Assembly (NCBI GenBank): GCA_021849615.1
Contig: JAJZSQ010000001.1
Span: forward strand, 31,357 to 95,356
Length of the DNA stretch: 64,000 bases
Direction of reading: 5' to 3'
Source: Pseudomonadota bacterium
GTDB taxonomy: Bacteria > Pseudomonadota > Gammaproteobacteria > Steroidobacterales > Steroidobacteraceae
The first letter of the stretch is position 1; every line of letters begins with the position of its first letter. The notes below the pieces were generated by a model. The model saw only the letters and a program-made list of their open reading frames with translations. It had not been told where the DNA came from and searched no databases. A program made the translations under genes and the position numbers. Positions 48,445-64,000 of this stretch are shown piece after piece.

Positions 48445-49206
48445 TTACGCCAGGGTCGCGAGCACGGGGGCGTGCAGCCGTCCGTTGCTGGCCAGCACCG
48501 AGGTGGTTTCCAGGGTGACCTCCCCGCCGGCGAGATCGGTGAACGTGCCGCCCGCCTCGCGCACGATCACCACCAGCGCGGCAATATCCAGGATGTTCAC
48601 GTCGGACTCGATCACCACCTCGAGCGCGCCCCGGGCGAGCAGGTGGTAGTGCACGAAGTCCCCGTAGCCGCGGATGCGGTTGACCTGGCCGATCAGCGCG
48701 CCGAGTCTCGCCCACTGCGCCGAGCGGGCGAGCGTCTTCAGATTGCCCGTCGAGACGATGCTGGCGGCGAGCTCGGCGGTCTGGCTGACGCGGATGGGAC
48801 GGTCATTCAGGTACGCCCCGCCGCCGCGCTCAGCCCAGGCGATTTCGCCATACGCCGGTGCGCTCGAGACGCCAAGGACCAGCTGCCCTGCGCGCAGCAG
48901 TGCGATCTGAGTCGAAAAGAACGGGCACTGCCGCACGAATGACTTGGTCCCGTCGATCGGATCGACCAGCCACACGCTCTCGGCGCCCAGATCGTGCTGA
49001 CCGGTCTCCTCACCGTAGAAGCCGTAGTCGGGGAAGCGCTCAGCGAGTAGGGTGCGGATGGTCTGCTCGGCGCGCACGTCCGCTTCGGTCACGGGCGTCT
49101 GGTCCGCCTTGGTGCGCACCTCGAGGTTGTGCTGGTAATAGCCGCGGATCACTTCGGCGGCGGCGCGGGCCGCCTCGAGGGCGGCTTGAAGTTCGGCTGA
49201 GGGCAT
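48445..49206 (-). CDS. Inositol-monophosphatase family protein, histidinol-phosphatase-like
   Basis: KADQTPVTEADVRAE, GEETG, WLVDPIDGTKSFVRQCPFFSTQIAL, ESDVNILDIAALVVIVREAGG. Confidence 0.88.
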   Translation of the reverse strand: MPSAELQAALEAARAAAEVIRGYYQHNLEVRTKADQTPVTEADVRAEQTIRTLLAERFPDYGFYGEETGQHDLGAESVWLVDPIDGTKSFVRQCPFFSTQIALLRAGQLVLGVSSAPAYGEIAWAERGGGAYLNDRPIRVSQTAELAASIVSTGNLKTLARSAQWARLGALIGQVNRIRGYGDFVHYHLLARGALEVVIESDVNILDIAALVVIVREAGGTFTDLAGGEVTLETTSVLASNGRLHAPVLATLA

Positions 49207-49297
49207 GAGGCTCGGTCGCGTGGGGGGCCGTCAAATTGCCGTCCCGGGACGCGCCTGTCAATCGCGCGCTCTGGCACAATGCGCCGCGAGGCGAACC

Positions 49298-49846
49298 ATG
49301 GGCAATCGACTGAGCAAAATCTACACGCGCACCGGGGATGAGGGCACCACCGGGCTCGGCGACGGGACACGGGTGCCCAAGGACAGCGCGCGGGTCGAGG
49401 CCTTCGGCACGGTCGATGAGCTCAACAGCGCGCTCGGCGTGCTGCTCGCCGTACCGGGCCTGCCGGCGGCGGTCCTCGAGTGTCTGACCGAGGTGCAGCA
49501 CCAGCTGTTCGATCTCGGCGGCGAGCTGTGCATCCCGGGACACACGGTCCTCGGAGCCGAACAGGTCGAGGGCCTGGAGCGGACGCTCGATGCGTTCAAC
49601 GAGGTGCTGCCACCGCTGAAGGAGTTCATCCTGCCGGGCGGCGGCGCGGCGGCGGCCGCCTGTCACCTCGCTCGCACCGTGGCCCGGCGTGCAGAGCGGC
49701 GGGTCTGGACGCTGGCGGCCGCCGAGCCGGTCAATCCGCACGCGCTGCACTACTTGAACCGGCTGTCGGACCTGCTGTTCGTGCTGGCCCGGGTGCTCGC
49801 GCGGCACGAGCGGGGCAGCGAGGTGCTCTGGCGGCATTCGCGCTGA
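49298..49846 (+). CDS. PduO-type cob(I)alamin adenosyltransferase
   Basis: KIYTRTGDEGTTGLGDGTRVPKDSARVEAFGTVDELNSALG, LPGGG, LNRLSDLLFVLAR. Confidence 0.93.
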   Translation: MGNRLSKIYTRTGDEGTTGLGDGTRVPKDSARVEAFGTVDELNSALGVLLAVPGLPAAVLECLTEVQHQLFDLGGELCIPGHTVLGAEQVEGLERTLDAFNEVLPPLKEFILPGGGAAAAACHLARTVARRAERRVWTLAAAEPVNPHALHYLNRLSDLLFVLARVLARHERGSEVLWRHSR

Positions 49847-49917
49847 GGCGCGCCACCCGCACTGCAACTTTCGGTGCGCCGGCGTGTTCTGGGGGGCATC
49901 CTGGACCGGAGACGCCC

Positions 49918-50610
49918 ATGAACCGCACGCCGTACGCCGCACTAGCCGGCCTGTTCCTTGGACTCACCGCGCTCGCAGTGCTGCCAGGCTTGGCGCACGC
50001 CGGGGATCGCACGACGGTCACGCGCACCTACCCCTGGCACTCCGATCGACTCGCCCTCGAAGTGCCTGCCGACGTGCAGTACCACCCGGCGGCCACCTGG
50101 AGCCTGACGATCAGTGCGCCGGAGCAGACACTGCGCGAGCTCGTCGTCGAGGATGGGCGGATCAAGTCCAGGGTGCATGCCTGCTTTTCGCTGATCCCGT
50201 TCTGCATGCACTTCGGGACGGACATCGAGCACACCGTGCACGTGAGCATCAGTGGGCCGGCGCTGCGGGTGATTCGAGTCGACGGTACGGCCGACCTCGA
50301 GCTCGATCAGGTGCACCAGGACCGTCTCGCGCTGCAAATCGACGGCAGTGGGAAAGTCCAGGGCAGCGGTGCGGTTCAGGTGCTTGCCGTGACCATCGAC
50401 GGTGCCGGCACCGTGCACCTGGGGCACCTGAGCGAGCAGCGCGCCCGCGTGCACATCAACGGCAGCGGCACGGTCTCGATCGCACCCACCGACAGCGTCT
50501 CGGTGAACATTGCCGGGGCGGGAACCGTACGCCTGCACTCCAATCCGGCGCACGTCACGAGCCACATCTACGGCGCCGGCGAGTTGACTCGCGTGCCCGC
50601 CACCGGTTGA
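49918..50610 (+). CDS. Secreted GIN-domain (DUF2807) protein
   Basis: Signal peptide; repeats IDGSGKVQGSG, IDGAGTVHLG, INGSGTVSI, IAGAGTVRL, IYGAGELTR. Confidence 0.8.
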   Translation: MNRTPYAALAGLFLGLTALAVLPGLAHAGDRTTVTRTYPWHSDRLALEVPADVQYHPAATWSLTISAPEQTLRELVVEDGRIKSRVHACFSLIPFCMHFGTDIEHTVHVSISGPALRVIRVDGTADLELDQVHQDRLALQIDGSGKVQGSGAVQVLAVTIDGAGTVHLGHLSEQRARVHINGSGTVSIAPTDSVSVNIAGAGTVRLHSNPAHVTSHIYGAGELTRVPATG

Positions 50611-50646
50611 GGATCCGCGGCCCGCGCGGCCGCCGAGGTTGGGGCG

Positions 50647-50684
50647 GCCGGGTCGCGGCGCACACGAGCGGCCCGGCTCTTTTT
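50647..50684 (+). terminator. Intrinsic terminator of the DUF2807 gene
   Basis: 9-bp stem GCCGGGTCG/CGGCCCGGC with one G-U pair, then TCTTTTT. Confidence 0.65.
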
Positions 50685-50710
50685 CCCCGGCAGCCGCGCC
50701 CCTGAGCCGC

Positions 50711-51289
50711 TCAGGCGTCCAGCTGCCGCTCGAGGCGCGTGCGCGAGAACAGGCCGCGCACGACGGTGCCGCCCTGTGCGGCGCGCTCTAATACGACGAT
50801 ATGCGTGATTGCGCGATGTGCTCTGAAGTGCGCGGCGATGTCCGCCACGCTGGCCGTGCGCACCGCCTCCCATTCCAGCATCGGCACCTGCTCCCAGGGC
50901 GTCATGATGTGGCCGACTTGGATCTCATCGTGACGCGTGAAGCTCGAGTTGTTGAGAAACTGCAGCGGCCGCTCGCCCTGGATGTCGTAGGAGGTGATCA
51001 GGCCGATGACCTTCTCGCCCCGCGCGACGAGCAGCGCCCGCACGCCGGCCACCATCATGTCGCGCAGCGCCTCGTCGATCAGCCGTTCGGCCGTCACGAG
51101 GACCGGGGTCTGGGCGGCGAAGTCGGTCATGACGAGCGCTGCCGGATCGGTCGGAGCGACCCGGTGGGCGTGCGGCGGCGCGGGGCGTCGCGGGGCATCA
51201 CTCGTGGCGAAGGTGCTCTCAGCGGGATGCAGTTCCCCCGGCCGGGCGAGCAGCGCGTGTTCGGCGCCTTCCGATTCTGAATCAAACAT
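50711..51289 (-). CDS. CBS-domain protein
   Basis: DMMVAGVRALLVARGEKVIGLITSYDIQG and FRAHRAITHIVVLERAAQGGTVVRGLFSRTRLERQL. Confidence 0.85.
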   Translation of the reverse strand: MFDSESEGAEHALLARPGELHPAESTFATSDAPRRPAPPHAHRVAPTDPAALVMTDFAAQTPVLVTAERLIDEALRDMMVAGVRALLVARGEKVIGLITSYDIQGERPLQFLNNSSFTRHDEIQVGHIMTPWEQVPMLEWEAVRTASVADIAAHFRAHRAITHIVVLERAAQGGTVVRGLFSRTRLERQLDA

Positions 51290-51483
51290 CGATGTTGTCC
51301 TCCGTCGCGCCCGCGTGCGACAGCGTCGAGACCGCTCGGCCTACGGGCGCCGAAGCATTCTGCGCCGACGAAGGAGACAGGCGCGTCCCCCAAGCGAGAG
51401 ACACCCTGCCGCGCTGCGGGCGCCGCCAGAGAGGTTTGACCGGCGCGGCGCGGAGAGTTCCGGGTCCGGGCTCGCGGCGGCGC

Positions 51484-51521
51484 GCAAAAAAAACAGGGCC
51501 GCGTGATGACTCACGCGGCCC
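51484..51521 (-). terminator. Strong intrinsic terminator, minus strand
   Basis: Perfect 13-bp stem CAGGGCCGCGTGA/TCACGCGGCCCTG, 4-nt loop, then T8 on the minus strand (A8 at 51484-51491). Confidence 0.92.
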
Positions 51522-51699
51522 TGTCTCCCCCCTCGACCTGTGCCCAGCGGGTCTACCCGCGCAATCCCCTGCTCGAAGCGCTCACCGGCGTCGGTCCGTG
51601 GTGTTCTTGTCCCGGCGCTGTTGCACTGATGGTATCTCGCCCGAGCCTTGCGTCAAGCACTTTGCACCTGCCGTTGCTCCTGTGCAACGAATCGGGGGC

Positions 51700-63515: not shown

Positions 63516-63615
63516 GTCAAAGAGCCTTTGGCGCTAAGACCGAGTGACCAAAATGTCCAGCAGTAACTGGAGCCATTTTGGATTTACTCTGACTTTGTTG
63601 ATTCTCGATATCTTC

Positions 63616-64000
<385 letters not shown>

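Follow-up and report, generated by a model that had tools for sequence, protein, structure and literature searches.

The gap between ampD and a CBS-domain gene in the window (the whole 64,000-nucleotide stretch analyzed) probably contains a small-RNA (sRNA) gene that stands alone, with a sigma-70 promoter and an intrinsic terminator of its own. It would have had a single origin within a sub-clade of one genus, would be controlled by a transcription factor and would act in trans. The predicted RNA is ~137 nt long (51486–51622, minus strand, as delimited by the promoter and terminator positions), and homologues are found in 22 of the 58 genus genomes. It very probably represents a previously undescribed regulatory RNA and a lineage-restricted new sRNA family. 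The architecture, its conservation, a single gain and base-pair covariation can all be read from the sequences. The putative regulator-binding palindrome, the covarying inner stem and the nearly invariant G-rich candidate contact segment are new here.

Architecture of the locus and fold of the predicted RNA

The gap (51290–51699) is flanked by two minus-strand genes, ampD (stop codon 51702–51700) and the CBS-domain gene (51289–50711). The sequence-only reading had placed the element between these genes, and domain searches confirm both, with matches to Amidase_2 (E 4.4e-30) and PF00571, respectively. The RNA gene of the window is separated from an adenosyltransferase-like gene, the direct follower of ampD in most non-carriers, by the CBS-domain gene and a DUF2807 (head GIN) gene (49205–51289). 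A 16S rRNA gene starts near the end of the window (63615–64000) and is truncated by the contig end, the last base of the window being base 95,356 of the 95,356-base contig; rRNA operons are the usual break point of metagenome-assembled genomes (MAGs).

The homologues were aligned from the palindrome to the T tract as 22 distinct genes, comprising clade A (n = 17) and clade B (n = 5; L037, L045, L047, L053 and L013). The promoter is a sigma-70-like minus-strand pair, TTGACG (−35 element, 51651–51656) and TACCAT (−10 element, 51629–51634), separated by 16 nt. Both elements lie where the sequence-only reading had put them, and the pair is the sole promoter-like site in the 1.5 kb between 50900 and 52400 (shuffled sequences gave 0.0 ± 0.1). 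TTGAC is present in 22 of 22 homologues, the −10 element is identical in 17 of 17 clade-A genes and takes the form TATNAT in clade B, and the promoter layout has a fixed spacing across the 22 homologues. The sequence GCAACA (51619–51624, minus strand), which spans the predicted start (~51622), repeats a half-site of the upstream palindrome; it is invariant in the 17 clade-A genes, always 4 nt past the −10 element.

The palindrome CGTTGC-N6-GCAACG (51672–51689, minus strand; core GTTGC-N6-GCAAC at 51688–51673) is centered at 51680.5, approximately −58.5 from the predicted start. Its GTTGC and GCAAC halves are 100% identical in the 17 clade-A genes, while the 6-bp center is random (0.33); the distance to the −35 element is fixed at 16 bp in clade A and is 13–14 bp in clade B, where some copies have mismatched halves. 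Since the halves are fixed and the center is random, a dimeric DNA-binding protein fits the palindrome better than an RNA hairpin, and the palindrome looks like a regulator site, newly recognized here. For an activator, for example one of the CRP family or of the NarL/GacA type, such a position would be suitable; a repressor would also fit, given that GCAACA is invariant at the start of the clade-A genes.

CGTTGC-N6-GCAACG occurs 96 times in the 58 genus genomes, the sRNA sites being counted in, versus 40 times for the reversed control. Several copies adjoin genes reading as TonB-dependent receptors or FecR (L149–L175; sites near position 1501 in most). The excess possibly reflects a regulon shared with the sRNA and is suggestive only. 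Another site, GTTGCGCATGCGCAAC (L118:1501-1516; a similar one is present in L163), lies ahead of a gene reading as a LacI-family regulator, past a glycosidase-like gene. Because its center is symmetrical, this is probably the regulator's own operator, separate from the sRNA palindrome.

The transcript would end at an intrinsic terminator (51486–51523, minus strand), CAGGGCCGCGTGA-GTCA-TCACGCGGCCCTG followed by T8, in which 51523–51511 pair with 51506–51494 to form a 13-bp stem with a GTCA loop, and the T8 run occupies 51493–51486. A perfect 13-bp hairpin with T8 about 180 nt past the ampD stop had been described; all of these elements are present, the measured distance being 177 nt. A simple terminator scan of the region left the hairpin at 51523–51486 unflagged, probably because an A-U/G-U extension of the stem consumes part of the T run. 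The T run, from which the long U tail of an Hfq-dependent sRNA would come, is T8 in the window but weak (CTTTAT) in five clade-A genes (L039–L041, L044 and L046).

The coordinates of the ~139-nt RNA earlier predicted from the promoter and terminator are right, and this RNA folds at −65.3 kcal/mol, a value that beats 200 of 200 shuffles (z −3.9), mostly via the terminator. The compact inner hairpin proposed at 51547–51560 (minus strand; GCGGGTCTACCCGC, GCGGG-TAGA-CCCGC in the window) fared less evenly: the sequence is there and the equivalent helix covaries in relatives, with the stem predicted in L034 and L040, but in the window's own minimum-energy fold the hairpin is outcompeted. Between it and the terminator lies the G-rich segment GGGCACAGGTCGAGGGG (51529–51545, minus strand; GGCACRGGUCGAGGGGG), a nearly invariant candidate contact site (identity 0.91 in clade A), which is mostly unpaired in the consensus structure.

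This consensus structure was obtained with RNAalifold from the 17 clade-A RNAs and contains 21 pairs. Standard pairs occupy 98.6% of the alignment cells at these positions; when the partners are slid by 1–3 columns, pairing falls to 26–43%. The covariation score was reached by 0 of 500 shuffles, and its support rests on four pairs that change on both sides, namely two of the three pairs of helix 3 (the inner hairpin) and two of the 13 terminator pairs. In the terminator, 99.5% of the cells are paired and nine of the 13 pairs never vary, which suggests conservation of the sequence beyond what termination by itself should require.

Conservation, distribution and origin

The sequence-only reading had made its candidate sRNA depend on conservation of the gap in related genomes, and the comparison supports the candidate. 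The promoter, the 3′ part and the terminator are kept in 22 of the 58 genus genomes; the spacer, the 5′ half and the ampD flank are not. When the gap was searched in 60 relatives, 14 further species of the genus gave long matches, and outside the genus none was convincing. A scan for AmpD in named genomes gave 80 loci, mostly MAGs labelled Proteobacteria, Gammaproteobacteria or Steroidobacteraceae. The terminator motif lies within ~230 nt of the ampD stop in 18 of them (L031–L047 and L053), and all 18 have the promoter.

The alignment of the 22 genes consists of near-identical blocks amid drifted DNA. Upstream of the RNA, the mean pairwise identity in clade A (n = 17) is 1.00 for each palindrome half, 0.33 for the palindrome center, 0.91 for the −35 element, 0.48 for the spacer and 1.00 for the −10 element. 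Within the RNA it is 1.00 for GCAACA at the start, 0.40 for the 5′ half, 0.70 for the inner hairpin, 0.91 for the G-rich segment and 0.89 for the terminator; the ampD 3′ flank gives 0.34. These figures are inflated by descent among close species, so the argument rests on the contrast between blocks and not on absolute values. Clade B has the same promoter layout, G tract and terminator with a wholly different 5′ and middle part, in which a GGACAC...GTGTCC-type hairpin is conserved, with AATAAA or a similar sequence behind it. To judge by the alignment, this clade reads as a 5′ domain replacement in an sRNA with constant promoter and terminator.

The covariance model R1 matches in 22 of the 58 genus genomes, with the gene directly past ampD. 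In a 296-genome sample of the order, a convincing score was obtained in 13 genomes, all of them genus members, and outside the genus this sample gave six marginal matches only (20.6–26 bits). Four of these marginal matches (L134–L137) were read and have the look of chance matches; L135 is a terminator-like hairpin with no relation to the RNA. Where the model also matches the opposite strand of the same loci, it picks up the terminator palindrome in reverse.

In the AmpD tree, all 22 carrier rows fall into one clade of 23, which fits one gain and one loss. The lone non-carrier of this clade is L054, where the ampD stop overlaps the start of another gene (TAATGA); the loss thus goes with a local rearrangement. 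Most other species inspected have an empty site, with ampD followed directly by a convergent cob(I)alamin adenosyltransferase gene, named from reading the sequence and not from a domain search. Masked bases are present within ampD of L205.

Nature of the element and competing explanations

The unit beside ampD has the marks of an intergenic sRNA gene, namely its own promoter, an intrinsic terminator and no conserved reading frame. A small-protein gene was rejected on the evidence of the 22 homologues, across which no open reading frame is conserved, the longest ones being short, unrelated or absent. Rfam covariance models gave no match in the window gap at gathering scores and none on the minus strand at E ≤ 5; this agrees with the earlier remark that no 6S, SRP, RNase P or tmRNA signature is recognizable. 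Searches of the open literature for ampD with sRNA found nothing relevant, and those for Steroidobacter with small RNA found no sRNA study of this group.

In all carriers the hairpin comes directly after ampD and on its strand, and some read-through into it is likely. It could therefore be merely the ampD terminator, marking the 3′ end of the ampD transcript, with an incidental promoter match. This explanation is unlikely: the −35 element, the −10 element and the palindrome are kept at fixed spacing while the spacer and the flank drift, the upstream palindrome has no T tract, and species without the unit manage without it past ampD. An ampD 3′ end alone thus leaves the conserved promoter and palindrome unexplained. 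Alternatively, the transcript could serve the CBS-domain gene as its leader or attenuator, with transcription from the promoter either stopped or let through. The CBS-domain gene is near the unit in L001–L009, and in the window and L002–L009 it lies downstream on the same strand. However, it was not found near the unit in L010–L015, where the unit is intact (in L010 the sequence past the terminator reads as the end of the convergent adenosyltransferase gene), so the sRNA gene is independent of it. Moreover, no alternative anti-terminator fold was seen, and the leader explanation, very unlikely on these grounds, was rejected because the linkage is not conserved.

Two further explanations concern what the RNA would bind. 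In the first, the RNA would sequester CsrA/RsmA (RsmY/RsmZ/CsrB type) and be driven through the palindrome by a GacA-like response regulator; a CsrA-sponge role had been guessed at in the sequence-only reading. CsrA is encoded in the genome (PF02599, two matches), the 18-bp upstream palindrome and the length of ~140 nt recall RsmY/RsmZ, and most clade-A genes retain GGGGAUUG or AGAGGAUUG. However, ANGGA is mostly absent. Sequestration needs several unpaired GGA motifs (PMC2375449). The window RNA has four GGA versus 3.8 expected, so the caution that the count is not clearly above chance was justified; with 1–4 GGA per RNA versus 3.1–4.7 expected, nearly all of the 22 homologues are at or below chance, and the guess is extremely improbable. 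As a decoy, the RNA could mimic a ribosome-binding region with its G-rich segment and titrate a C-rich sRNA or pair with the 16S rRNA end. The Xanthomonas sRNA sX13 would bind sequences of the type seen in the conserved GUCGAGGGGG, but the decoy role is drawn from analogy only and is highly improbable. It also seems decidedly unlikely that such a decoy, directed at a C-rich sRNA or the 16S rRNA end, goes together with a regulator shared with the TonB-receptor genes; if true, nutrient uptake and the RNA would be coupled by a single factor through the GTTGC-N6-GCAAC sites near these genes.

Proposed mode of action and relation to known RNAs

The preferred reading remains a trans-acting sRNA encoded by a stand-alone gene that has a sigma-70 promoter and an intrinsic terminator of its own. 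Among Steroidobacteraceae-like Gammaproteobacteria, a sub-clade of a single genus would have gained this gene once and kept it directly downstream of ampD. A dimeric transcription factor would bind GTTGC-N6-GCAAC at about −58.5 and control the ~137-nt transcript, whose 3′ end may be protected by the very stable terminator. The RNA would act in trans, probably by base pairing through the G-rich segment (GGCACRGGUCGAGGGGG) that separates the inner hairpin from the terminator, although contact sites of sRNAs are not usually G-rich. We infer that the gene is transcribed, that a factor controls it and that its RNA acts by base pairing with the help of Hfq, which is encoded in the genome (PF17209 above the cut-off). 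Two Hfq matches of equal score are present in one MAG (G000:C108:321-506 and G000:C218:10830-11015), reflecting either gene duplication or repetition of a contig end. A narrow complement search with CCCCCTCGACCYGTG (one mismatch, seven genomes) found no shared target; it gave 0–2 further matches per genome besides the gene itself, at loci without homology.

The nearest analogue in kind is sX13. This 115-nt RNA always follows polA, in a gap of 437 bp and with flanks that vary, and uses C-rich loops to repress mRNAs that contain GGGG motifs (PMC3771888). Both RNAs belong to Gammaproteobacteria and lie in a gap of ~0.4 kb, always past the same housekeeping gene (polA for sX13, ampD here), and both are conserved between varying flanks. 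In contrast to sX13, the ampD-side RNA has a G-rich segment and no C-rich loops; no sequence relation between the two is shown, and Rfam gave no match.

For RsmX, RsmY and RsmZ of Pseudomonas, the GacA site TGTAAG-N6-CTTACA differs from GTTGC-N6-GCAAC here. These RNAs are similar in length and likewise have their own promoter and terminator and a palindrome upstream of the promoter, but carry the multiple unpaired GGA motifs that are absent here (PMC2375449). RgsA of Pseudomonas (~120 nt) also has a conserved upstream regulatory sequence and does not effectively sequester RsmA (PMC2375449); it differs in that regulatory sequence and in genome position, the comparison for homology being the Rfam scan only. 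6S RNA is in a similar size range, but the fold predicted here has no long end-joining helix with a central bubble, nor was there an Rfam match.

Until its target or regulator comes to light, the discovery is solid but of an ordinary kind. The predicted regulatory-RNA gene is well delimited and belongs to a lineage represented here almost exclusively by MAGs, with a candidate regulatory site and a candidate contact segment ready at hand. The birth of this sRNA gene falls at one point of the tree, and the empty site is still visible in sister species. The near-invariant terminator stem, set against the turned-over 5′ half, makes the family a useful case for the constraints on sRNA 3′ ends.
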